Positions 12,753 through 30,096 of a DNA stretch of 64,000 bases are shown piece by piece. Position numbers and translations under genes: made by a program. Source of the stretch: Spirochaetota bacterium (GTDB taxonomy: Bacteria > Spirochaetota > Brachyspiria > Brachyspirales > JACRPF01); NCBI GenBank assembly GCA_016214035.1, contig JACRPF010000021.1, positions 62,001 to 126,000 on the forward strand. The letters are read 5' to 3'. Each line of letters starts with the position of its first letter. Positions within the stretch are counted from its first letter, which is position 1. The notes beneath the pieces were generated by a model that was given only the letters and a program-made list of their open reading frames with translations, did no database searches and was not told the origin of the DNA.

Positions 12753-13562
12753 TCAGTTGGTGAAAAGAATGCGGCCGCAGTTGAAACAGACGATGATCTG
12801 ATTCTGCCGCCGTACTTCGTTGACCGTCATCTTCGGTATGGTGATATGGCATGCAGAGCAGGTGCCGTTCTCGATCTTTGAAAGCGCCCTGCCGCTGTAT
12901 TTCTCTTTGATCCGCGTATAATGCTCGAATATGCTCCGGTCGATCTTCGACTCGAGCGCCTTCTTGTACATCTGATATTCGTGAATTATCGTCTCGTTCT
13001 TGCTTTTCTGTGTGGATTCCCAAAGCTCATATGCGTAGACCTGACTGTCCGCCCGCTGCAGTTCGATGAGATATTTTATCTGTCCTTCTGTCTCATATTT
13101 CGATTCAAGTTCTTTTGCCGAACCGAGCGTACGGAGAATATCGTCTGCGCCTTTCGCCACGGACAATTTCGACATGATGTCTTTCTGGCTGATAAGGAAT
13201 ATCAACTGTGAAAGTATGCTGACATATTCATCAGCATTGTCCTCATCGGCGATAAGCACGAAAATAACTTTGACCTTCTGTCCGTCAAGCGACTGAAAAT
13301 CGATTTCTTCTTTAAGAATCGCGACGAAGATTTCCGTTTCCTTTACGCCTTTGATGCGCCCGTGCGGCACCGCGATGCCGTTGCCGATGCCCGTTGACTC
13401 CTCGATTTCACGTGTCTCAAGCGCCGATAGAATCTTTTTCTTGTCACCGTCAGTGGATTCGGCGATCTTGTCACTGAGGAGCTTAAGCGCCTCGTCTTTC
13501 GTGGCAACCGCTACGTCCTCGAATATATGATTTTTTTTGATCTTGTCGATGACTTTAAGCAT
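12753..13562 (-). CDS. PTS EIIA(Ntr)-type domain fused to C4 zinc ribbon
   Basis: 269 residues. Residues 1-150 are a PtsN-like EIIA domain with the phosphorylatable H67 in GIAVPHGRI. Residues ~155-230 are a charged helical hairpin, and the end is a zinc ribbon with Cys235/238 and Cys259/262 (CSACH ... CFNCGR), very like the C-terminal ribbon of the DUF164/zf-RING_7 family. EIIA(Ntr) proteins take phosphate from EI(Ntr)-HPr homologues and regulate targets by phosphorylation state; no sugar-permease genes are nearby, so a regulatory role is likely. An upstream in-frame start exists, but AAGGAG six bases before the ATG at 13562 decides the start. It heads the minus-strand run down to the synthase gene. 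Confidence 0.85.
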   Translation of the reverse strand: MLKVIDKIKKNHIFEDVAVATKDEALKLLSDKIAESTDGDKKKILSALETREIEESTGIGNGIAVPHGRIKGVKETEIFVAILKEEIDFQSLDGQKVKVIFVLIADEDNADEYVSILSQLIFLISQKDIMSKLSVAKGADDILRTLGSAKELESKYETEGQIKYLIELQRADSQVYAYELWESTQKSKNETIIHEYQMYKKALESKIDRSIFEHYTRIKEKYSGRALSKIENGTCSACHITIPKMTVNEVRRQNQIIVCFNCGRILFTN

Positions 13563-13608
13563 GGGCGCTCCTTGTTGATGGCGGCGGCAATTGCCGGCAC
13601 GCGAAACC

Positions 13609-13636
13609 ATTGTAGCGTAACTGAAAAAAAATGCAA
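13609..13636 (-). promoter_or_regulatory. Promoter for the EIIA-zinc ribbon operon
   Basis: On the minus strand TTGCAT (13636-13631), 16 bases, TACAAT (13614-13609), about 47 bases before the ATG. Confidence 0.55.
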
Positions 13637-15790: not shown

Positions 15791-15930
15791 TATTGTCGCT
15801 CTCACGACGCATCCTGCGTCGTTGGCGCTCAGCGTAGCGCGGATGTTTACTTTCTCCCCGATATTGCAGCGCATCCGTGCGCTCATGGATGCTACAGGCT
15901 AATAATATTGGGTTGTAAGAAGTCCGCGCT
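15791..15930. repeat. Intergenic repeat R1, copy A
   Basis: It begins TATTGTCGCTCTC and ends CCGCGCT, as does the copy at 31331. Inside, GACGCA/TGCGTC pair round TCC (15806-15820), GTTGGCGCTC follows, and a larger hairpin GCATCCGTG/CATGGATGC spans 15871-15892. The end touches the stop codon of the CNNM-EIIA gene, so on the minus strand the element lies directly downstream of that gene and upstream of the M23 peptidase promoter. Confidence 0.8.
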
Positions 15931-17449
15931 ATGACATATCCGTCGTCTGCTCAACGGCGATTATCGTATCGTACAATTCTTTCGGTGAAACCGCATCGGC
16001 AAGCCTGTCCTCGAAATAGCCGCTGTCAAAGAGCTTAGCGATATGCGACAGCAGTATCTGGTGCAGCCGCGGCGCCTGCGCGGGGGTCAGAAGAATGAAG
16101 AGATAGCGTATCGTGTCCTTGCTTTTACTGGTGGGCGCCGCGATAGGCGTTTTCATCCGGGCAACGAATACGAACGCCCTCGTGATATTCTCAAGACGCG
16201 CATGCGGTATCGCCAGATGCCGTCCCACATAACTGCTGCCGAGCCGTTCGCGTTCGGCGATATGCGGCATAATCTCGGTGACCGGCAGCGGCAGCATGCC
16301 CTTGGGCAGACGGGAAAGCGCGTTGTGCGCGGCGGACGTTATCGACTGTCCTTCGACCTGCAGAAGTATCTGATCCGGTGATGACAGCGCGCCGCTTAAG
16401 CGTTCGGGCTTCTCGAGCGGATATTCCTCTTCAATCGTTCCCACTATCTCCTCGAGCACATCCTCAAGGGTGATATGTCCGGTCCACTTGTCTGATGCGT
16501 CGTAGACGGCAGCGAAATGCATCCCCCGCCGCTGCATATCGGTAAGCACCGATTCCAGCGTGTCAGTCTCGCGCACCTTCAAACAGGCGCGTACATAGCC
16601 GCAGATACCGGCTTCAACCGGAATACTGGTGCGCATGTAGAGGTCTTTTACATGGACAATGCCCACCGGACGATCATCCTCGCCAATCACCGGATACCGT
16701 GAATACCGGTACTTCGCGATGATAGCGTTAACCTCTTCCCGCGTCATCTTCGAACCGATGCTGCATGTTTTGTGACGTGATTGCATCACATTGCGGACGG
16801 TCAAACCGCCCATATCGAGGATATTTTCAATATACAGCAGTCTGCGGAACGACATGACGCCGGTGGACTGCGACTGCTCGAGAATGATGCGCACTTCGTC
16901 CTCGGAATGATCATCCGTCCGGTTCGTCGCGGGAATGCGCATCAAAAACAGCAGCGCATTCGAGACCGAGTTCAGTATCCACAACGGCACAATAAAGATA
17001 TAATAAAAAACGATTATCGGATACGCCGTGAACAGCGCCGCTTTTTCCGTCCTGCGGATAGCCATCGACTTGGGCACCAGTTCCCCGATGACGATATGCA
17101 GAAATGAGATGAACAGATACGCCACCGCCACCGAGATACCGTGCGCGGTATGCCCCGCGGCATCACCCATATGAAGCCAGGCGAGCAGCGGCTTAATGAG
17201 CCTTGCCAACGCCGGTTCGCCGACGAATCCAAGGCCGATACTCGCAAGCGTTATTCCTATCTGACACACCGAAAGAAACTGGTCCAGATGCGTCTGTATG
17301 TACTGTACCACCTTCGCCTGCCGGTTCCCCTTCTCGGCGAGTGCGTCCATTTGTGTTGGACGGGCCTTTACCGCGGCGAATTCCGCCAGAACGAAGAATG
17401 CATTCATAAGCAGAAGCAATACTGTAAGCATAAGAAATAATAAAACCAT
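15929..17449 (-). CDS. CNNM/CorC-type membrane protein fused to an EIIA domain
   Basis: 506 residues. Residues 1-185 are the CNNM (DUF21) transmembrane domain with three to four helices and the family motifs LNAFFVLAEFA-like start, QIGITLASIGLGFVGEP and GELVPKSMAIRR. Residues ~200-320 are a CBS pair (RYSRYPVIGEDDRPVGIVHVKD; FAAVYDASDKWTGHITLEDVLEEIVG). Instead of the usual CorC_HlyC domain, residues ~350-500 form a PTS EIIA-type domain with H416 in GRHLAIPHARL. CNNM proteins act in Mg2+ or other cation homeostasis; the fused EIIA suggests control by phosphorelay. AAAGGAT precedes the ATG. It lies 34 bases after rnhA on the same strand. Confidence 0.88.
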   Translation of the reverse strand: MVLLFLMLTVLLLLMNAFFVLAEFAAVKARPTQMDALAEKGNRQAKVVQYIQTHLDQFLSVCQIGITLASIGLGFVGEPALARLIKPLLAWLHMGDAAGHTAHGISVAVAYLFISFLHIVIGELVPKSMAIRRTEKAALFTAYPIIVFYYIFIVPLWILNSVSNALLFLMRIPATNRTDDHSEDEVRIILEQSQSTGVMSFRRLLYIENILDMGGLTVRNVMQSRHKTCSIGSKMTREEVNAIIAKYRYSRYPVIGEDDRPVGIVHVKDLYMRTSIPVEAGICGYVRACLKVRETDTLESVLTDMQRRGMHFAAVYDASDKWTGHITLEDVLEEIVGTIEEEYPLEKPERLSGALSSPDQILLQVEGQSITSAAHNALSRLPKGMLPLPVTEIMPHIAERERLGSSYVGRHLAIPHARLENITRAFVFVARMKTPIAAPTSKSKDTIRYLFILLTPAQAPRLHQILLSHIAKLFDSGYFEDRLADAVSPKELYDTIIAVEQTTDMS

Positions 17450-20322: not shown

Positions 20323-20350
20323 TTGACAATCCAACTGAAAAACATATAGT
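20323..20350 (+). promoter_or_regulatory. Strong sigma70-type promoter of the HTH-EIIA/hyf-like operon
   Basis: TTGACA (20323-20328), 16 bases, TATAGT (20345-20350). The predicted mRNA start is about 25 bases before the ATG at 20383. No other promoter of this quality is seen before 28.2 kb on this strand. Confidence 0.7.
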
Positions 20351-20382: not shown

Positions 20383-21057
20383 ATGGACTTGAAAATAAAG
20401 GATTTGGTTCGCTTTCTCAACGTCCCGGAAAGAACTGTTCTCGGCTGGATACGCGAAAAAAAGATACCGGTATACCGCATCCACCACCAATACCGCTTCG
20501 ACCGGGCGGAAATAAGCGAATGGGCGCTCGCGTCCGGCATCGCATCAACCGCGGAACTCGCCGAACTGACCAGCGGCAAAACACCCGTAGACATCGTCAA
20601 TAACATACGCGCCGGCGGCGTGTTCTATCACGTTGCCGGAACCACTGTCCATGAAGTGCTCAGGAACGCGGTCGATATCATGCCGCTGCCGCATGGAATC
20701 GATAAAGCACTCGTCGCATCGCAGCTCATTGAACGTGAAGAACTTATGCCCACCGCCGTCGGCAAGGGAATAGCCATTCCGCATCCGCGCCGTCCTGTCA
20801 TGACCGATATCGGAAACGAGCGCTGTGCCATTATATTTCCTGAACATCCTATCAATTTCAAGGCGCGCGATGGTATCGCCGTTCATGTTTTTTTTATAAC
20901 ACTTAGCGCAAATCATAACCGGCATCTTGAGATGCTGTCACGCATAGCATATCTCTGCCGGAACGAAGTGTTTGCGGGGCTTTTGAAAAACCGCGCGTCG
21001 ATGGGAACCATACTTTCCTACATCGAAACGGCGATAAAGCCTGGACGTGCCGCATGA
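20383..21057 (+). CDS. Excisionase-type HTH fused to a PTS EIIA domain; likely regulator of the hyf-like operon
   Basis: 224 residues. Residues 3-50 are a MerR/excisionase-like winged HTH (IKDLVRFLNVPERTVLGWIREKKIPVYR-type layout, then a wing with HHQYRFDRAEISEW). Residues ~75-218 are an EIIA(Ntr)-type domain with H134 in GKGIAIPHPRRPV. This joins a DNA-binding head to a phosphoacceptor, without the PRD domains of classical PTS regulators. It is the first gene after a strong promoter and its stop overlaps the next start (ATGA), so it is translationally coupled to the membrane complex. It may control its own operon or, by phosphorylation state, the complex itself; both are inference. No Shine-Dalgarno sequence is evident. 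Confidence 0.85.
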   Translation: MDLKIKDLVRFLNVPERTVLGWIREKKIPVYRIHHQYRFDRAEISEWALASGIASTAELAELTSGKTPVDIVNNIRAGGVFYHVAGTTVHEVLRNAVDIMPLPHGIDKALVASQLIEREELMPTAVGKGIAIPHPRRPVMTDIGNERCAIIFPEHPINFKARDGIAVHVFFITLSANHNRHLEMLSRIAYLCRNEVFAGLLKNRASMGTILSYIETAIKPGRAA

Positions 21058-23027
21058 TAATGCTCGCAGTCAGCATCGGCATCATCCTGTTCGGCGGGTT
21101 TATAGCACTTGCCGTTCCCGAAAAAGCCAAGCCGTATCTAAGCGCCATATGCACAACCATCGCGGCAATTCCGGCACTCATCGCCGCACTTCCTGTTCTC
21201 TTCACGCGCGATGCTCTTTCGGCAAGTATCTTACTGCCCCATCCATTCGGCAACGCTGTTTTCGTCCTCGACCCATTATCCGCATTCTTCATTCTTATTA
21301 TATCCGTCATGGGTGCACTTTCATCGATCTATGCAGTCGGTTACACGAAACCATATCGCGACGCCTCGCATAAAAGCGGCGGACACTTTTTCTTTCTGCC
21401 GCTCCTCATCGCATCGATGATGCTCGTTACTGTATCTTCGCATGTGCTGGTATTCCTCACCGCATGGGAAGTAATGACGATAGCAAGCTTTTTCGCCATC
21501 ATGTTCGAGGACAACAAGGAAAGCGTACTGAAAGCTGCGGTGCGTTATCTCATCGCCATGCATGTGGGCGTACTCCTCCTCACCGCGGCGTTCCTTCTAT
21601 CGTGGCGCTTTTCCGGAAGTCCCGACATGGCCTCGTTCGCAGCACTCCGCGGCAACGGCATCACCAATGCGCTTTTAATTCTGTTCTTCATCGGGTTCGC
21701 ATTCAAAGCGGGATTCATGCCGTTTCATACGTGGCTTCCTGAAGCGCATCCCGCGGCGCCGTCGCACGTCTCGGCGCTTATGTCCGGCGTCATGATAAAG
21801 CTCGGCATCTACGGTATGCTCCGCACACAAATGCTCTTCGGTCTTCCGCCGGTATGGTTCATCACCGCCTTCCTCATCGCCTCGCTCGTTACCGCACTCT
21901 TCGGCATACTCTATGCGATAGCACAGGGCGATGTGAAACGCTTTCTTGCGTATTCAAGCGTGGAAAACATCGGCATCATCGGCATCGGCATGGCATTCGG
22001 CATGCTCGGGATGGCGCATCAGAATATGGTGATGGCGGTTGCTGGATTCACCGGAGCGATACTGCATATACTCAACCACTCGGTGTTCAAGGAGCTCCTG
22101 TTCTTCGCGGCAGGCGCTGTCTACACGAAAACGCATACACGGAATATCGATGAACTCGGCGGACTTATCAAGACCATGCCGCTCACCGCCGTGTGTTTTC
22201 TCGCGGGCGCTCTGGCGATATCCGGCATACCGTTCTTCAACGGCTTCATCAGCGAGTTCTTCATTTACCTATCGATGCTCAGCGGAATCACCGACACAAC
22301 GGGTGTGACACCGCTCGCATATATCACCTCATTTGCACTGTTCGCCTTCATTGGAGCACTCGTCCTTGCCGGCTTCACGAGAACGTTCGGCATCATGTTC
22401 CTCGGCGAAAAGCGGAATAAACATATTCACAGCACCGAAGTATCGCCGTCGATGCTTATACCTATGTTCATCGCGGGGTCTTTCGCGCTCATCCTCGGCG
22501 TCGCGCCCGGTATTCTCAGACTGTCGACAGCTCCGGTCGAAGCGCTTGTTGGAAACTGTATAGCTCCCGTAAACGGCCTGATGCATCACACACTCACCAC
22601 GTTCATGCAGGTGTTCGCAATCATCGCAATAATATTCGCTTTACTCGCCGGTATCCGGTTTCTGCTTATGCGCGGAAAAACCGTCACGCGCGCGCCCACC
22701 TGGGGCTGCGGCTACGGTGCACCGAACGCCCGCATGCAGTACACTTCGGCATCGTATGTGTCTCCACTCGTCATGATAGTCAGAAAGCTCATCGCGTTCA
22801 CCGCACACCGGAGAAATCCGCACGGGCTCTTCCCGGCGCACGCGTCGTTCCGGGCGCACACCAAGGACATCATCGACCGGTGGACGGTACGGCCCGCCAC
22901 GTTCGCCGTACGCCGATTTCTCAGGCGCTTCACCTGGATTCAGAGCGGCAGCACACGGCAATATGTGCTCTTCGGCGTTCTGTTCCTTATCGTACTCATC
23001 TTCCTGGCGGTTGGTATACAATGGTGA
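21054..23027 (+). CDS. Hydrogenase-4 component B-like proton-translocating subunit
   Basis: 657 residues with about 15-16 membrane helices, of the NuoL/M/N-Mrp antiporter superfamily and closest in layout to HyfB/HycC. Antiporter residues are present: the Glu in LTAWEVMTIASFF, Lys in FAFKAGFMPFHTWLPEAHP, Lys in SGVMIKLGIYG and Lys in ILNHSVFKELLFFAAG. The C-terminal third carries GCGYG followed by a soluble stretch and a last helix, typical of HyfB. It should move H+ or Na+ across the inner membrane as part of the complex. Starts overlap the previous stop by four bases, and its own end overlaps the next start by seven. Confidence 0.92.
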   Translation: MIMLAVSIGIILFGGFIALAVPEKAKPYLSAICTTIAAIPALIAALPVLFTRDALSASILLPHPFGNAVFVLDPLSAFFILIISVMGALSSIYAVGYTKPYRDASHKSGGHFFFLPLLIASMMLVTVSSHVLVFLTAWEVMTIASFFAIMFEDNKESVLKAAVRYLIAMHVGVLLLTAAFLLSWRFSGSPDMASFAALRGNGITNALLILFFIGFAFKAGFMPFHTWLPEAHPAAPSHVSALMSGVMIKLGIYGMLRTQMLFGLPPVWFITAFLIASLVTALFGILYAIAQGDVKRFLAYSSVENIGIIGIGMAFGMLGMAHQNMVMAVAGFTGAILHILNHSVFKELLFFAAGAVYTKTHTRNIDELGGLIKTMPLTAVCFLAGALAISGIPFFNGFISEFFIYLSMLSGITDTTGVTPLAYITSFALFAFIGALVLAGFTRTFGIMFLGEKRNKHIHSTEVSPSMLIPMFIAGSFALILGVAPGILRLSTAPVEALVGNCIAPVNGLMHHTLTTFMQVFAIIAIIFALLAGIRFLLMRGKTVTRAPTWGCGYGAPNARMQYTSASYVSPLVMIVRKLIAFTAHRRNPHGLFPAHASFRAHTKDIIDRWTVRPATFAVRRFLRRFTWIQSGSTRQYVLFGVLFLIVLIFLAVGIQW

Positions 23028-23935
23028 GCATTCTTCTCTATATCTTCGCGCTTTCCATCGCGCCGTTCCTCTTCATGGGTATCATCATCCGCGTCAAGGC
23101 GTTCTGGGCGGGACGGAAAGGTCCGCCGCTGCTCCAGCCGCTCTATGACTTCATCAAACTCCTTCGCAAAGGTGAAGTGATAAGCGCCTCGGCGTCGTTC
23201 ATATTCACCGTTGCACCGCTTGTCTGCACATCGGCCGTTCTCGGCGCGTCGCTCCTCATCCCGTTCGCCGGACGTGCTGTCATATCACTGAACGGCGGTA
23301 TCGTTCTCTTCTGTTATCTGCTCGCGCTTTCGCGGTTTTTCCTGCTTCTGAGCGCGCTCGATGTGGCAAGCAGCTTTGAAGGCATGGGCGCAAGCCGCGA
23401 AGCGACATTCGCCGCATTCGCCGAAACGGGACTGTTCTTTCTGCTCGGCACATTTGCCGCGGCAACGGGAAACACATCGTTCACCGCAATCACCGCCGCA
23501 ATAGAGCGCAACACGACGTGGGGCATACTCATCATCTGTCTCTGGTCAATAGCGCTATTCCTGCTCATGCTGGTTGAAGGATCGCGCATGCCCGTTGACG
23601 ACCCGAACACGCATCTTGAGCTTACAATGATTCATGAGGTCATCGTCCTTGACAACAGCGGCGTGAACTTTGCGTTCATGCTGTATGCGTCACATCTGAA
23701 AGTCATATTATTCGGCTCACTCATTGCCGCACTTGTCATCCCGTCCCATCTGGCATGGTATTACTACGCCGCCGCATGGGCGCTCGTGCTTACGACTCTG
23801 GCAGTCGTCATCGGTATTTTAGAATCGATACTCGCGCGTCTGCGCATGACACTGGTGCCGCAGTTCATATTCCTCGTCACGGCAATGACTGCCATCAGCG
23901 CGCTGCTGATAGCGGTCTACAAGGGGGGCATATGA
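23021..23935 (+). CDS. Hydrogenase-4 component C-like (NuoH family) subunit
   Basis: 304 residues, about eight membrane helices, NuoH/HycD family. The signature loops are FMGIIIRVKAFWAGRKGPPLLQP (split here for reading), LDVASSFEGMGASREATFAA and VEGSRMPVDDPNTHLELTM, the last holding the acidic cluster that links the soluble arm to the pump modules. The open frame extends upstream of the ATG at 23021, but that part overlaps HyfB and has no homology; the ATG chosen gives the canonical start MVSILLYIFAL and overlaps the previous stop codon. It anchors the hydrophilic arm to the membrane. Confidence 0.93.
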   Translation: MVSILLYIFALSIAPFLFMGIIIRVKAFWAGRKGPPLLQPLYDFIKLLRKGEVISASASFIFTVAPLVCTSAVLGASLLIPFAGRAVISLNGGIVLFCYLLALSRFFLLLSALDVASSFEGMGASREATFAAFAETGLFFLLGTFAAATGNTSFTAITAAIERNTTWGILIICLWSIALFLLMLVEGSRMPVDDPNTHLELTMIHEVIVLDNSGVNFAFMLYASHLKVILFGSLIAALVIPSHLAWYYYAAAWALVLTTLAVVIGILESILARLRMTLVPQFIFLVTAMTAISALLIAVYKGGI

Positions 23936-24576
23936 TAATATCGCTTCTCGCCGTACTCTTCGGCACAACGCTTCTCTATATTGCCGTCGTCAGCCGCATC
24001 GAGGCGTACATCAAAATGACGGCGCTGCAGGGGCTGTGTCTTTTTCTCATCGCTATTACCGGCATAATCCTCGAAGGACATTTCCGTTCACTCGGCACCA
24101 TCGTCATCGCCGTTGAAACGCTCGGGCTGAAGGCGATTATCATCCCGTGGTACATGACCAAGGTCACCCGTGAGAATGACGTGCTTCGTGAAGGAGCAGC
24201 ACACGCGTCGCATCTGAGTTCGCTCATCGCGGTTGCCGTCATCCTCGCCGTAGGCATACTCCTGCCCTTCTCCGTGAAAGACCTCGGCGTCATACCGCCC
24301 CTGTTCTTCGGCATTTCGCTCGCGGCGGTGGCCACCGGGTTCTTCCTCATCATCACGCGCAAAAACCTCATGACGCATGTGGCCGGATACATGGTCATCG
24401 AGAACGGGATATTCCTGCTGTCACTCGGCGTGGCAAAGGAAATGCCCATCATGGTGAGTCTCGGCGTCTCGCTCGATATATTCCTCGGCGTATTCCTCGC
24501 CGGCATGTTCATACGCCGCATCCAGGGCACGTTCAACCGCCAGCATATCGACACGCTCACCGACCTTAAGGATTGA
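23932..24576 (+). CDS. Hydrogenase-4 component E-like (NuoK-like) subunit
   Basis: 214 residues with six to seven helices. The C-terminal half resembles NuoK/MnhC-type subunits: MVIENGIFLLSLGVAKEMP contains the conserved membrane Glu. The N-terminal half (LLYIAVVSRIEAYIKMTALQG) is typical of HyfE. The start overlaps the previous stop (ATGA), and the end overlaps the next start in the same way. It is expected to take part in ion translocation and to seat between the HyfC- and HyfF-like subunits. Confidence 0.9.
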   Translation: MIISLLAVLFGTTLLYIAVVSRIEAYIKMTALQGLCLFLIAITGIILEGHFRSLGTIVIAVETLGLKAIIIPWYMTKVTRENDVLREGAAHASHLSSLIAVAVILAVGILLPFSVKDLGVIPPLFFGISLAAVATGFFLIITRKNLMTHVAGYMVIENGIFLLSLGVAKEMPIMVSLGVSLDIFLGVFLAGMFIRRIQGTFNRQHIDTLTDLKD

Positions 24577-25985
24577 CGATGATAGCACTCCTTCTGATAA
24601 CACCCGCCGTGCTTGCGCTCATCGCGCTCGTGTTCCGTAAACGGCAGCTCAATATCATCATCCTCGTCATTGCCGCGCTGGTGCAGGTGTACGCCACCGT
24701 CATGCTCATGCTGCATCCGTCGCAGTTCACGCTCTACTTCCGCGTCGACAGTCTGAACATCTTATTCCTCGCCGTGCTGTCGCTCGTATTCCTGATGGCG
24801 GCAATCTACAGCATCGATTATCTCGAACATGCGGTCGACGACGCCCGATGGACCACATTCTACACGATATTCATGCTCCTCTTCGTCGCATCGATGAGCG
24901 GCGGGCTGCTCGCCACGCATCTGGGCGTGTTCTGGATAAGCCTGGAGGCGTCAACGATTACAAGCGCCGTACTTGTCTACTACTACCGCACACGCGCGGC
25001 ACTCGAAGCAACGTGGAAATATCTCTTCATGTGTTCCATCGGTATCGCGCTGTCGTTCATCGGCATCATCTTCATATCAGCGGGAATGTCCGGCGCGCCG
25101 TCGCTCTTCTATGACGATTTGATAAAGAACGGTCCGTCAGCATCACGTTTTTATCTGCCGCTTGCATTCGCTTTCCTCGTCGTCGGATTCGGCACCAAAA
25201 TGGGTCTCGCGCCGGTGCATAACTGGCTTCCCGACGCTCACTCCGAGGCGCCCGCCCCGGTGTCGGCCATGCTCTCGGCGACGCTCCTTAATACGGCGTT
25301 CATCGGCATCATCAGAATATACCGCATCGCCGCTGAAGCCGGATTCGTCCGCTTCGCGAACATCGTCCTGTTCTCAATGGGCCTCATGTCGCTCTTCGTG
25401 AGCGCGGTGTTCGTGCTCCGTGTAAAGAATTATAAGCGGATGCTCGCATATTCTTCCATAGAGCATATGGGAATTCTTGCCGTAGCCCTCGCTACGGGCG
25501 GCGCAGCCGTTCCCGCCATGTTCCTGCAGATGACCGGTCATTCACTCGCGAAAGCCTCGTTCTTCCTCACCTCGGGAACGATATATGACCGCTTCGGCAC
25601 GAAAAAGACGAATGAAGTGACGGCCCTCACACGCCGCGCGCCGGTTACCGGATGGCTCTGGCTCATATCCTGCGTTGCCATCTGCGCATTCCCGCCGTTC
25701 TCGCTCTTCTTCAGCGAGTTTTTTGTCCTCCAGGAACTGTTCGCGAAACACCTCGTCATCACCATCATCGTCGCTGTGCTCCTCACGATAATACTTTACG
25801 GCCTCATGTCGAAAACAGTATCGATGTCGTTCGGCCGCGCGCCTGATGACAAAACCTACCGCACGCCGGTGGTGCGCTGGCTCCCGCAGGTCATCCTGCT
25901 TGCCGCGGCACTCGTCATCGGCATCGCCATGCCGGCGTGGCTCCGCAATATATATACGGCAGCCGCGGCGTGGGTAGGACGGTAA
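24573..25985 (+). CDS. Hydrogenase-4 component F-like antiporter subunit
   Basis: 470 residues with ~14 helices, second NuoL/M/N-type subunit. Key residues: Glu in FWISLEASTITSAVL, Lys in GFGTKMGLAPVHNWLPDAHSEAP (split motif; K follows GFGT) and Lys in MTGHSLAKASFFLTSG. The order B-C-E-F is that of E. coli hyf without the HyfD pump. Two near starts exist (24573 and 24579); the first overlaps the previous stop by four bases. Two pump subunits predict a stoichiometry lower than complex I but higher than the one-pump formate hydrogenlyase-1. Confidence 0.92.
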   Translation: MTMIALLLITPAVLALIALVFRKRQLNIIILVIAALVQVYATVMLMLHPSQFTLYFRVDSLNILFLAVLSLVFLMAAIYSIDYLEHAVDDARWTTFYTIFMLLFVASMSGGLLATHLGVFWISLEASTITSAVLVYYYRTRAALEATWKYLFMCSIGIALSFIGIIFISAGMSGAPSLFYDDLIKNGPSASRFYLPLAFAFLVVGFGTKMGLAPVHNWLPDAHSEAPAPVSAMLSATLLNTAFIGIIRIYRIAAEAGFVRFANIVLFSMGLMSLFVSAVFVLRVKNYKRMLAYSSIEHMGILAVALATGGAAVPAMFLQMTGHSLAKASFFLTSGTIYDRFGTKKTNEVTALTRRAPVTGWLWLISCVAICAFPPFSLFFSEFFVLQELFAKHLVITIIVAVLLTIILYGLMSKTVSMSFGRAPDDKTYRTPVVRWLPQVILLAAALVIGIAMPAWLRNIYTAAAAWVGR

Positions 25986-25987
25986 AG

Positions 25988-27478
25988 ATGCAATTCATCA
26001 GTTTCAGAAATTTCACCGCGGTGAGCCGCAGTACCGTGCCCGTCATGCCGATGAATGAATTCTGCACCGAAATACGAACGCTCGTATCACGCGGACTTCG
26101 CGTTGTGCTCTTTTTCGGCATGCGTGAACCCGACGGCATCACCATCTATGCAGTGCTCGCCGACGATGAACGTTCGGCGCTCTATGCTGGATCATCACGC
26201 ATCACCACTGACCTGACATCCTACCCGTCGTTAACAACTGACATCCCGTCGATACACCTCTTCGAACGTGAGCTTTGGGAAGAGACCGGCATCGTTCCGG
26301 AAGGACATCCATGGCTGAAACCGGTGCGCTTCGGCCATGGCCGTCACGACTCGACAGAGCTTCATCAGTATCCGTTCTTTCATATGGAAGGAAGTGCCGT
26401 TCACGAAGTTGCGGTAGGTCCCGTACACGCCGGCGTCATTGAGCCCGGGCATTTCCGTTTCCAGTGCACGGGGGAGACCGTTCATCATCTTGAGATACAG
26501 CTCGGCTATCAGCATCGCGGCGTGGAAGAGCTGTTCTGCACAGGCGGCAGCATCCTCGGCAAAGCGGCGCTCGCCGAGTCCATCGCGGGAGACAGCGCGC
26601 TCGCACATACGCTCAGTTATGCACAGGCGGTCGAATCGCTTTGCGGCATCGAGTCACCGATACGTGCGCAATACATACGCTCGCTCTGCCTTGAGTTGGA
26701 ACGCACGGCCATTCACATCGGAACACTTTCGGCACTCGCCAACGACGTGGGCTATCTCACCGGCAACGCATTCTTCTCCGCGCGCCGTACAAGCGTCATC
26801 AACGCGCTTCTTCTGATATGCGGCAGCCGATTCGGCCGCGGGCTCATCCGTACCGGCGGCGTGCAGTTCGACATCGACAATGCCAAAGCGAAACGCATAG
26901 TGTCCATACTCGACGGTGTACTCGACGACTGCATCATGATGGGTGAAGCGATGTTCGACTCGGCAGGAGTACGTTCACGTTTCGAGAACACCGGTGTCGT
27001 TTCGCGTGATACCGCGCATGCGATAGGCCTTGTGGGTGTTGCGGCAAAAGCATCGGGATTGAAACGCGACGTCAGAAGTTCGCATCCGTCCGGCGCATAC
27101 CGGCTCACCCCGGTACATACATTCTCACTGCCCGGCGGTGATGTATTCACACGCGCATATATCCGTTTCCTTGAGATACAGCAGTCGCTCAGGTTCGTCC
27201 GTGAAACACTGCAGCACCTGCCCGGGGGCGAGCTGTCACGGCAGCCGGAACGATGTGCCGCCGACAGTTTTGCGGTATCACTTAATGAGGGGCCGCGCGG
27301 CGAGATTGCGCATGCGATTGTCACCGGCCCCAAAGGAACTGTTGTCCGCTACAAGGTGAAAGACGCATCGTTCCACAACTGGTTCGGCCTCGCCTGTGCG
27401 CTCCGCGAGGAAGGAATATCGGACTTCCCGCTCTGCAATAAAAGCTTCGATTTATCTTACGCAGGATTTGACCTTTAG
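25988..27478 (+). CDS. Hydrogenase-4 component G-like (NuoC-NuoD fusion) lacking NiFe ligands
   Basis: 496 residues. Residues 1-140 match the 30 kDa/NuoC domain (FERELWEETGIVPEGHPW); from about 155 the 49 kDa/NuoD-hydrogenase large-subunit fold follows (VHHLEIQLGYQHRGVEELF). A NiFe hydrogenase needs two CxxC pairs. Here the first is CGIE at 219-222, keeping one Cys, and the C-terminus reads FPLCNKSFDLSYAGFDL with no DPCxxC. The protein therefore cannot bind the NiFe centre in the normal way and also lacks the typical cleaved tail. It fits the energy-converting hydrogenase-related (Ehr) group. The electron acceptor or quinone site is unknown. The ATG is two bases after the previous stop. Confidence 0.9.
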   Translation: MQFISFRNFTAVSRSTVPVMPMNEFCTEIRTLVSRGLRVVLFFGMREPDGITIYAVLADDERSALYAGSSRITTDLTSYPSLTTDIPSIHLFERELWEETGIVPEGHPWLKPVRFGHGRHDSTELHQYPFFHMEGSAVHEVAVGPVHAGVIEPGHFRFQCTGETVHHLEIQLGYQHRGVEELFCTGGSILGKAALAESIAGDSALAHTLSYAQAVESLCGIESPIRAQYIRSLCLELERTAIHIGTLSALANDVGYLTGNAFFSARRTSVINALLLICGSRFGRGLIRTGGVQFDIDNAKAKRIVSILDGVLDDCIMMGEAMFDSAGVRSRFENTGVVSRDTAHAIGLVGVAAKASGLKRDVRSSHPSGAYRLTPVHTFSLPGGDVFTRAYIRFLEIQQSLRFVRETLQHLPGGELSRQPERCAADSFAVSLNEGPRGEIAHAIVTGPKGTVVRYKVKDASFHNWFGLACALREEGISDFPLCNKSFDLSYAGFDL

Positions 27479-27487
27479 GTAAACACT

Positions 27488-28246
27488 ATGCCGAATCTTA
27501 TAAACATACGGATACGACAGGGCACACAATACGTTCCCGACGTGACCAAAGCCGCCGTCAACGAGATGTTCCGCGGCTTTCCGATTGTGGACGATACGAA
27601 ATGCGACAATTGCGATGCGTGCACGAAGGTTTGTCCGTCGAACGCTATCACCGCAAAACCGCTTGCCATCGATATGGGAAAATGCGTTTTCTGCGGCGAC
27701 TGTGTCCGCGCATGCAGTCCCGGAGCGATAACGTTCACAAACAGACATCACATCGCCGCCGACGCGCGGGAAAAGCTTGTCATCAAAAACGGGATGACGC
27801 CGGAGAATTACGAAGCCGCCGCCGTGCATGTGAGCAAAGAGATTCGAAGCGTGTTCGGCAGATCACTCAAGCTCAGGTCGGTATCCGCGGGCGGCTGTAA
27901 CGCCTGTGAAATGGAATTGAACGCATCGAACAACGTGAACTTCGACATGGGGCGTTTCGGCATCGACATAGTCGCCTCACCGCGTCACGCTGACGGCATG
28001 GTAATCACCGGGCCGGTAAGCGGGAATATGGCGTACGCACTTGAAGAAACCTACCGCGCACTTCCCACACCGAAGCTGATAATCCTCTTCGGAAGCTGCG
28101 CAATTTCGGGCGGCGTATTCGCGGATTCGAAAGCGGTCAACCGCTCGTTTATCGACAGCAACACCGCACAGCTCTACGTACCCGGATGCCCCGTACATCC
28201 GCTAACATTCATCAACGGACTCCTCAGGCTTATAGGCAGAATATAA
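27488..28246 (+). CDS. Fused dicluster ferredoxin and NuoB/HyfI-like subunit
   Basis: 252 residues. Residues ~35-85 carry two 4Fe-4S motifs, CDNCDACTKVCP and CVFCGDCVRACSP, as in HyfH. Residues ~130-250 are a NuoB-like domain with all four ligands of the proximal cluster: GGCNACEME, FGSCA and PGCP. Hyf and Hyc code these as two genes (H and I); here one polypeptide does both. It would carry electrons from a soluble donor to the interface with the G-like subunit. It is the last gene of the operon and ends 11 bases before the convergent gene; no terminator hairpin is visible. Confidence 0.92.
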   Translation: MPNLINIRIRQGTQYVPDVTKAAVNEMFRGFPIVDDTKCDNCDACTKVCPSNAITAKPLAIDMGKCVFCGDCVRACSPGAITFTNRHHIAADAREKLVIKNGMTPENYEAAAVHVSKEIRSVFGRSLKLRSVSAGGCNACEMELNASNNVNFDMGRFGIDIVASPRHADGMVITGPVSGNMAYALEETYRALPTPKLIILFGSCAISGGVFADSKAVNRSFIDSNTAQLYVPGCPVHPLTFINGLLRLIGRI

Positions 28247-28257
28247 ATCCGCAACGA

Positions 28258-29700
28258 TTATTTCGTCGGCGTTATGATGATATCGTCGATTATCGCGCGA
28301 ACCTTATTGCGTGTATGAAGCTGGAAAAGATAATTAGCGGCGCCCGCCGGCACCTTGAACTTCGCTTCAAAGCGTTTCGCCGTCCCGCCGCCGTCCTTGA
28401 TATCCACATGCACGAGATCGGCTTTATCGTCCGCGTCGGGCTGCCGCACGATACAGTGCAGATATGAGCTTTCTTCGTCGCCGGTAATCGTCTTATACAT
28501 GAATGATATTGTGTAGGAAACATCCGGCTTGAGAACCCCCGGAGCCGTCATGAAGCAGGGATTCCACTCGTTCGCGCTGCCCGTCGTGTCGATGATCAGC
28601 GACGAACCGCCCGCGATGGCGTCGGCTGTGCCGATGGTCGCGTTCCCCGCCACAAGCGTGAAGGACGGCTGTTTGCCGGATTCGAAATCCAATTTTATCG
28701 CACCACTCGCCGCCGGTACCGCTGCAACAGCTTTCGGCGCACCCTTCGCTGTGATGACGATATCGTCGACGACGGCTTTCGCCTTGAAGTGCGTGTGTAT
28801 CTGAAGCGCATAGGTAGCTGGGTCGGCAGGTGTTTTAAACGAAAGCGTCACCTTCGTATCGCCGGTCTCCTTTATGTTGAATACCCCGAGATCGAATTTC
28901 GGATCCGGCGGATCGAGCGGCCGGATGAGACAATGCACATATGAATCATTTTCAAGCGAAAGTGTTCTAACGTTGAAGGTCACGGTATATTCGGTATTGG
29001 GCTTGAGCATACCGGTTGCGGTCATGAAACACGGCGTCCATTCGTTTTCACCCGAGTACGAATCGATGAGGAGCGAGCCCTTTCCCGCGATTACGCTCTC
29101 TCCGGAAACCCGGCCATACGGTTCCACGCAGGTGAACGTCGGCTGTTTTCCCTGTTCAAAATCGATCTTTGTCACTCCAGCCGACACGGCAGGTGCGGCT
29201 GCGGGAGCGCCCTTCTCGGTGATCACGATATCGTCGATGATGGCCTTCACTTTGTAACGCGTATGTATCTGGAACGCATAGTTGGGCCGGTCGGCGGGCA
29301 CCTTGAACGTCATCGTCACTTTTTTATCGCCCGTCTCGGTGACATTGAACACGCCGATATCGAGCTTGTAATCCGGCGGATCGAGAAGCCGCACGAGACA
29401 ATGCACCATGCTGCCTTCAGGATCGAGCGACACGGCACGAACGGTGAGCGTAACGGTATATTCGGCACCGGCCTTGAGTACACCCGATGCGGTACGGAAA
29501 CACCACGTCCATTCGCTGGGCGCCTCCGTTGAATTGATCATGAGCGACCGCTTTCCCGAAACGGGACTCTTCTCGCCGATGCGCGCGTACTCGCCGTTGA
29601 TCTCAAATCCTTCCGCCTTGCCGCTCTCAAAATCAAGCGTGAGCGGCAATGCCGGTATGGCCGCCGCCATCATGATACATGCGATAATAATGTTTTTCAT
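28258..29700 (-). CDS. Secreted triple-repeat carbohydrate-binding-like protein
   Basis: 480 residues. A signal peptide (MKNIIIACIMMAAAIPA) is followed by three tandem beta-sandwich repeats of about 150 residues, starting near 20, 175 and 335. Each begins with LDFESGK or DFEQGK, includes a W-x-PCF or W-CF turn (NEWTPCFMTA), H-C-L-V/I-R-x-L/P, and ends in RAIIDDIVITEKG-like strands. The fold resembles CBM4/CBM22-like carbohydrate-binding modules, but no catalytic domain is present. The start at 29700 is set by CAGGAG upstream and the signal peptide; the frame upstream is repeat DNA. It closes the gene cluster with GH130 and GH5-like enzymes, so polysaccharide capture at the cell surface is likely. 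Confidence 0.78.
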   Translation of the reverse strand: MKNIIIACIMMAAAIPALPLTLDFESGKAEGFEINGEYARIGEKSPVSGKRSLMINSTEAPSEWTWCFRTASGVLKAGAEYTVTLTVRAVSLDPEGSMVHCLVRLLDPPDYKLDIGVFNVTETGDKKVTMTFKVPADRPNYAFQIHTRYKVKAIIDDIVITEKGAPAAAPAVSAGVTKIDFEQGKQPTFTCVEPYGRVSGESVIAGKGSLLIDSYSGENEWTPCFMTATGMLKPNTEYTVTFNVRTLSLENDSYVHCLIRPLDPPDPKFDLGVFNIKETGDTKVTLSFKTPADPATYALQIHTHFKAKAVVDDIVITAKGAPKAVAAVPAASGAIKLDFESGKQPSFTLVAGNATIGTADAIAGGSSLIIDTTGSANEWNPCFMTAPGVLKPDVSYTISFMYKTITGDEESSYLHCIVRQPDADDKADLVHVDIKDGGGTAKRFEAKFKVPAGAANYLFQLHTRNKVRAIIDDIIITPTK

Positions 29701-29821
29701 ACGATACTCCTGCCGCTGAATATTGGCACCACCTGCCGTACAGTATACCAAATCCCCGCCGCATACGCAATGGACAATAATGACTGCCGATGGACAAAAA
29801 GGAACGGCGGGAGGGCCGGAG

Positions 29822-30096
29822 GCTCGCGCGTTTAATGCTCGGGGGGAAATGTATTTCCTCGCGCCACGCACGGCTCAGCTGTCCATCCGTGGACAGATTC
29901 GCCGCATGCGCGCCATCCTGGCGCTCGATATTCCTTATTGATGATTAAGTACAATAATCTAACACGATGTTGTTACATGAAGCGTGGCGCTCGGAAACAC
30001 ATTTCCCCCCTTCGCCAATCGCGCGTTGATATATATAAATGGAGGAAGTGGTAAATTCTGGCTATTGTATGTTATGGCTCGAACGCCGCTGTGTCT
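29822..30096. repeat. Intergenic repeat R2, copy A, with inverted arms
   Basis: The 361-base gap 29701-30061 holds no gene. Arms at 29822-29869 and 29982-30025 are inverted copies with mismatches; the best core is GGGGGGAAATGT against ACATTTCCCCCC, followed inward by GCGCCACGC/GCGTGGCGC. Between them are two short hairpins, GTCCA-TCCG-TGGAC (29881-29894) and GCGCCA-TCC-TGGCGC (29910-29924). A tail GCTCGAACGCCG (30077-30088) follows in the same order and spacing as in copy B (45.4 kb). The tail overlaps the last codons of the GH130 gene. Confidence 0.7.

Follow-up and report, generated by a model that had tools for sequence, protein, structure and literature searches.

An Ehr-type operon with a replaced NiFe site and an HTH-EIIA partner gene in a Spirochaetota bacterium

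Energy-converting hydrogenase-related (Ehr) complexes have been described from Geobacter sulfurreducens (GSU0739-45; PMC7894505), from Riflemargulisbacteria, Melainabacteria and Spirochetes (PMC6349859), from comammox Nitrospira (PMC10284858) and from the Candidate Phyla Radiation (PMC7304191), and in the excerpts of these accounts on which we draw they have group 4 hydrogenase-like subunits without the NiFe-binding CxxC ligands. We found the same combination in a Spirochaetota bacterium (assembly GCA_016214035.1), within a window of 64,000 nucleotides (contig JACRPF010000021.1, positions 62,001 to 126,000; all coordinates below count from the first letter of this window). At 20383-28246 on the + strand lies one tightly packed set of seven genes, in which a gene for a fused helix-turn-helix (HTH) and enzyme IIA (EIIA) protein is followed by hyf-like genes B, C, E, F, G and an H-I fusion. 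The six hyf-like genes are contiguous, neighbours overlapping or standing apart by no more than 9 bases, and gene calls and family matches bear out an initial annotation of this DNA that described them as intact and close-packed; it omitted the seventh gene (20383-21057), although this lies within the interval it covered. The predicted complex is a new case of the described but uncharacterised Ehr family. Ehr is known from many phyla, and the residue map, the cysteine losses and the HTH-EIIA partner reported here lead to testable predictions on its donor, acceptor and regulation.

The large subunit G (25988-27478, +) joins a NuoC-like N-domain to a NuoD/HycE-like domain (Pfam PF00346/PF00329 and alignments). 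Both the L1 and the L2 CxxC motifs of group 4 hydrogenases are absent from it, and all four NiFe cysteines are replaced: in the alignment with HycE, C241 and C244 fall on A200 and S203 of G, and C531 and C534 on S490 and G493. The initial annotation had seen CGIE in place of the first CxxC. The cysteines are indeed missing, but CGIE (residues 219-222; 26642-26653, +) does not occupy a ligand position, HycE having MGIQ there, and the true replaced L1 site is ESIAGDS (residues 197-203; 26576-26596, +), which lies 19 residues upstream and aligns with HycE DRVCGIC. The same annotation was right that G has no C-terminal DPCxxC, as the L2 site reads SFDLSYAG (residues 486-493; 27443-27466, +) against SLDPCYSC in HycE. 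G terminates three residues past the last ligand position and has no C-terminal extension, the part of the large subunit that maturation proteases remove; a maturation protease gene is likewise absent from the operon. A hidden second pair of cysteines was found neither at the aligned positions of G nor in another subunit; the four proximal ligands of the I domain occur only where expected.

The replacement is highly conserved. In a census of 101 Ehr sequences, numbered by HycE, HycD or HycC, the C534 position is Gly in 100% and the C531 position Ser in 98%, and H147, E152, G201, D202, N484, K485, F487, S490, Y491, G493 and D495 are invariant among 48 aligned G proteins. Pseudogenisation was rejected as the cause of the degraded site, given how little the replacement residues vary from phylum to phylum. 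A structure model of G (mean pLDDT 91.3) has HycE as its best solved fold match (7z0s_E; TM 0.89 by query length), with E. coli complex I ranking behind it, and the HycE chain is also the best PDB sequence match of G. The chamber loops (residues 147-151 and 493-496) fall below a pLDDT of 50, so the model is uninformative on the shape of the pocket.

Phylogenetic placement agrees with the alignments. In an IQ-TREE tree of 66 rows, with NuoD as outgroup and archaeal membrane-bound hydrogenase (MBH) and membrane-bound sulfane reductase (MBS) sequences left out, a branch supported at 100/100 sets all Ehr rows apart from the Cys-bearing hydrogenases. Together with the lack of a second cysteine pair and the same NiFe-ligand loss that the excerpted text of PMC6349859 describes in relatives, spirochaetes included, this branch upholds the initial label of Ehr-like. 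The Ehr rows do not mix with true hydrogenases, with the nuance that their clade joins HycE/HyfG (98/93) and sits within the grade of group 4 hydrogenases. The closest row to the window is that of G001, a relative from its family, and a Victivallales sequence joins them in the next larger starred set; Geomonas and Geobacter homologues share the window's clade, in a comparison made without the published G. sulfurreducens EhrL itself. A genome contig scan gave at least 570 contig stretches with confirmed relatives, among them Geomonas, Bacteroidota, Verrucomicrobiota, Planctomycetota, Melainabacteria and Omnitrophota. Viral contigs gave no relatives. Mycobacterium branderi forms a very long branch whose place in the tree is unsure; its plasmid-borne Ehr-like cluster (L136) has degenerate pocket and cluster ligands and adjoins a DUF190 protein.

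The electron and ion paths of the complex appear to be retained around the replaced site. The H-I fusion (27488-28246, +) links a two-cluster ferredoxin domain to a NuoB/HycG-like domain (Pfam PF12838, PF01058), and, as initially reported, all of its Fe-S ligands are kept: 12/12 cysteines are present, serving two [4Fe-4S] clusters in the H domain and, in I, a proximal cluster of hydrogenase type (CxxC...C...C; C137, C140, C204 and C234). The closest solved chains are MbhJ and HycG. The membrane arm comprises B (21054-23027, +; 657 aa), a HyfB/NuoL-like antiporter-type subunit (NCBIfam hydrogenase 4 subunit B, E 1.9e-155, below the equivalog cut-off); C (23021-23935, +), a HyfC/HycD/NuoH-like membrane anchor (Pfam NADHdh, E 8.6e-31); E (23932-24576, +; ATG start at 23932), a HyfE-like membrane subunit (NCBIfam NF008556, E 4.9e-15, below cut-off); and F (24573-25985, +; 470 aa, TTG start with an alternative ATG at 24579), a HyfF-like antiporter-type subunit (NCBIfam hydrogenase 4 subunit F, E 3.8e-93, below cut-off). 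Given the family E-values (1.9e-155 for B and 2.2e-52 for G) and the conservation across phyla, the identity of the operon is not a matter of chance.

Within these subunits the ion-path residues are E139, K218, K249, K346 and E401 in B, all 100% conserved across Ehr homologues, and E125, K209 and K327 in F, and C has its E-channel glutamates E127, E135, E186 and E206. The earlier statement that the proton-path Lys and Glu are kept therefore stands, save at one position of F, opposite the TM8 Lys in the alignment, which is Asn in the window and in HyfF alike. The census extends this to the proton route whose functional roles are given in the formate hydrogenlyase (FHL) structure paper (PMC9474812). 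By HycE numbering, E193, E437 and R478 are found in 100% of Ehr sequences and H284 in 99%, R395 is Arg or Lys, and the canopy position D529 is mostly Asn (85%), the window having Asp. By HycD numbering, E138 and E206 reach 100%, E189 98%, E130 97%, Y102 88% and R108 78%, and by HycC numbering K239, H332, K336, E294 and E391 all reach 100%. The C subunit also has an Ehr-specific chamber loop, VDDPxTHLELTMIHE, in which D194, H198 and H205 are found in 100% of Ehr sequences; the HycD E201 position is His in 100%.

The first gene of the operon (20383-21057, +) encodes a protein of 224 aa with an HTH_17 domain and an EIIA_2 domain of the phosphotransferase system (PTS), both above cut-off (Pfam PF12728 and PF00359, the latter with 75.7 bits against a cut-off of 27), and its end overlaps the start of B by 4 bases. 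Its His134, at a phospho-acceptor-type position, and His181, at a second active-site-type position, are identical in 52/52 aligned sequences. When we considered the 67 testable loci, those in which B is present and preceded by no less than 900 bases of sequence, a gene of this family was found in 45, on the same strand and either in the operon or just before it, across at least nine phyla. Verrucomicrobiota often have it between B and C; in Melainabacteria it was found in 0/7, and three loci discussed below for their lost proximal-cluster cysteines (L105, L116 and L030) are also without it. Among 61 Spirochaetota genomes, strong members (at least 150 bits over the whole length, a threshold chosen after the scores had been seen) occur in 8 of the 11 with strong Ehr hits and in 0 of the 50 others, with a Fisher p of 5.6e-8 that is optimistic, these genomes being related. 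A narrow search found no literature joining EIIA with hydrogenase-related complexes and complex I, and the cross-phylum tie of HTH-EIIA to Ehr is apparently new. The genome also has an EI gene and two HPr genes. Two further EIIA_2 proteins are encoded nearby, one with a zinc ribbon (12753-13610, -) and one of CNNM-CBS-EIIA type (15929-17449, -), so that, counting the operon gene, a stretch of 8 kb holds three of the five EIIA_2 domains detected genome-wide. HPr-like genes near Burkholderiales Ehr were discounted as support for a PTS link: the one scanned fits the HPr profile only from position 21, and its phospho-site is possibly absent.

A different kind of variation affects the proximal cluster of some relatives. 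In at least 12 homologues, nine in the first set and three in further genomes of the phylum (L030, L105, L116, L060, L061, L077, L078, L129, L136, L164, L167 and L170), two to four of the four proximal-cluster cysteines are replaced, with well-aligned flanks. These rows occupy about five places in the tree, which suggests repeated loss of the ligands. We inspected G in nine of them, leaving out L164, L167 and L170, and the pocket signature was intact in 7/9 (L060, L061, L077, L078, L105, L116 and L030); in Meiothermus, where the cysteines are also lost, L2 is kept and L1 changed, and in M. branderi both sites are degenerate. Since most of the inspected homologues keep the signature despite these losses, the pocket may be something other than a simple electron-acceptor site. 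The proximal-cluster-less subtype may be new, as may the residue-level signature of the replaced site.

The genome comprises 5.2 Mb in 22 contigs. The operon, which ends at 28246 against an opposite-strand gene, includes no NADH or F420H2 input module and no dedicated formate dehydrogenase (FDH) or other dehydrogenase. Elsewhere there are four further large-subunit relatives, of which two are NuoD-type and two are Cys-bearing hydrogenases, as well as four genes with the gamma domain of 2-oxoacid:ferredoxin oxidoreductase (POR-gamma), and a set of menaquinone genes of the futalosine-type pathway (MqnE above cut-off, an MqnC-like gene just below it, an MqnA/D-type gene and UbiA), which makes a menaquinone pathway likely. 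The sole full-length FDH-like gene found is on contig C6, where the large subunit of a Cys-bearing hydrogenase is encoded about 4 kb away. This locus (L180; G000:C6:140000-158000) holds a second, Cys-bearing hyc-like complex with FDH-like, flavin-reductase-like and maturation-protease-like genes.

We hypothesise, with about even confidence, that the Ehr complex is an FHL-type respiratory module that would have lost its NiFe centre and kept its electron input, proton relay and ion pump, being fed by ferredoxin and placed under PTS-type control. Two points suggest ferredoxin as the donor, the lack of an encoded dedicated dehydrogenase and the four POR-gamma genes of the genome. Reduced ferredoxin would pass electrons to the H clusters and from there to the proximal cluster, a small proton-coupled acceptor, for which menaquinone would be the likeliest single candidate in this organism, would be reduced in the chamber that once held NiFe, and the reaction there would drive B and F through the E-channel, with ions being pumped. 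The HTH-EIIA protein could tune the expression or the activity of the complex to the phosphoenolpyruvate/PTS state. The complete cluster wire, the E-channel and antiporter residues, the loss of the NiFe ligands and the near-invariant replacement residues can be read directly at the level of sequence. An ion pump fed by ferredoxin or another donor had already been suggested in the initial annotation, and the retained E-channel and two-cluster H domain fit this idea, which we keep as a conjecture. Several observations weigh against our proposal. Neither an electron donor nor an acceptor is encoded beside the operon. Nqo4 H38 and Y87, the quinone-binding residues of complex I (PMC7684303), align with I151 and G201 of G. 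Riflemargulisbacteria are described, in the excerpts of PMC6349859, as carrying Ehr without a full quinone pathway, some proteobacterial relatives lack the H domain, and a measured activity or substrate of any Ehr was not found in the excerpted Ehr literature. The homologues that lack two to four proximal ligands, most of those inspected with their pocket kept, add to this, and because of them the electron scheme cannot hold unchanged across the whole family.

The donor and acceptor can be narrowed in more than one way. A specific form of the favoured reading, a ferredoxin:menaquinone oxidoreductase resembling complex I without its NADH module, is possible but doubtful: the coupling residues are kept, and the genome has futalosine-type menaquinone genes and complex I-type relatives, but G has no equivalents of H38 and Y87, the proximal cluster has the hydrogenase CxxC and not the tandem cysteines of complex I, and some Ehr carriers lack quinone synthesis (PMC6349859, as excerpted). 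A link to FDH, as proposed for Riflemargulisbacteria and Saganbacteria in the excerpts of PMC6349859, seems improbable here. The excerpted PMC7894505 does report Geobacter Ehr subunits as more abundant with formate than in hydrogen-containing conditions; however, no FDH gene lies in or beside the operon, the only full-length FDH-like gene found accompanies the hydrogenase on contig C6, and the FDH family is absent from the recurrent neighbours in about 92 Ehr loci. Sulfur chemistry, in which the proximal cluster itself would act as the catalyst of an MBS-like sulfane-sulfur (polysulfide) reductase, we rate lower again, as very improbable. MBS is also without a functional NiFe centre and without H38 and Y87, but its activity depends on just three proximal-cluster cysteines and on a loop shortened by three residues (PMC7684303), and because this chemistry depends on such a cluster it is unlikely in the window, where four cysteines have hydrogenase spacing. 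In addition, the equivalent of MbhL E21, reported absent in MBS (PMC7684303), is kept as E152, and G is nearer to HycE than to MbsL.

Other readings concern the chamber itself. It might bind or transform a small molecule or ion without redox chemistry, with the antiporter arm responding and the Fe-S clusters being structural, sensing or vestigial. We think this unlikely: the proximal-ligand losses at several tree positions, with pockets mostly kept, speak for it, as do the few Ehr loci adjoining SulP, Sbt_1 or CitMHS transporters, but if no electrons flow it is hard to see why the window copy and the majority of homologues should have kept every cluster, and the transporters are infrequent neighbours (SulP at 5 of about 92 loci, a frequency that may be no more than chance). 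A related and somewhat less probable idea would couple an undescribed, possibly non-redox pocket chemistry to the movement of ions, with PTS phosphorylation as the gate, acting through HTH-EIIA; electron flow to the proximal cluster would then be dispensable, since several lineages lost the ligands and most of those inspected kept the pocket. Finally, the close overall kinship of G with HycE/HyfG could point to a cryptic true NiFe hydrogenase with ligands from other residues. This is scarcely credible, as the four cysteine positions are replaced in the window, the C534 position is Gly in 101/101 homologues, G has no C-terminal extension and the operon has no maturation protease gene.

Both genes flanking the operon are on the opposite strand, and a promoter-like TTGACA-16-TATAGT (20323-20350, +; 11/12 sigma-70-like matches), a pure pattern match from a consensus scan, lies 33 bases 5' of the first gene. 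The convergent gene downstream (28258-29871, -) encodes a protein with repeated CBM_4_9-type domains, and Rfam gave no match in the window. Among Ehr loci elsewhere, Burkholderiales and Rhizobium plasmid clusters (L128, L133, L137, L138 and L139) have an I subunit without the ferredoxin domain, and Variovorax (L128) has two tandem clusters, one with this domain and one without. HPr-like and spermidine-synthase-like proteins, YoaK and CopG are the neighbours that recur around Burkholderiales Ehr (L133, L138, L139 and L136), and an enolase gene lies near Ehr in B. multivorans (L133) and M. branderi (L136). Elsewhere in the phylum, transporters adjoin Ehr, namely Sbt_1 of bicarbonate type (L039), SulP (L040 and L035) and CitMHS (L035), and among these loci a second EIIA, with CBS domains, also stands beside it; such neighbours were too few to claim a link of Ehr to bicarbonate or sulfate transporters.

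Set against known systems by description, the excerpted accounts of published Ehr complexes make no mention of an HTH-EIIA operon partner, of a residue-level signature or of a proximal-cluster-less subtype. The window protein and PtsN-type PTS EIIA regulators are both EIIA_2 with a His pair at active-site-type positions, whereas the window protein has an N-terminal HTH_17 fusion, a gene within Ehr operons and a phosphorylation that is predicted only. Respiratory complex I (NuoD/Nqo4, NuoB, NuoH) likewise lacks NiFe and has antiporter subunits and an E-channel, but the window complex lacks the quinone residues H38 and Y87 and the NADH module, and falls in a separate clade. The MBS/MBX complexes of Pyrococcus furiosus are, like it, complex I superfamily pumps without a functional NiFe centre; MBS reduces sulfane sulfur at its three-Cys proximal cluster (PMC7684303), whereas the window has four cysteines, and its large subunit is more distant from theirs than from HycE. 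With the FHL and hydrogenase 4 of E. coli (HycE, HyfB-I) the window shares subunit order, fold, proton gate Glu, canopy Arg and E-channel. It differs from them in that the four NiFe cysteines are lost, H and I are fused, the operon has no HyfA/HycB, HyfD, HycH or HycI genes, and the chamber loop of C carries a 3-residue insertion relative to HycD, with His in place of Glu201.

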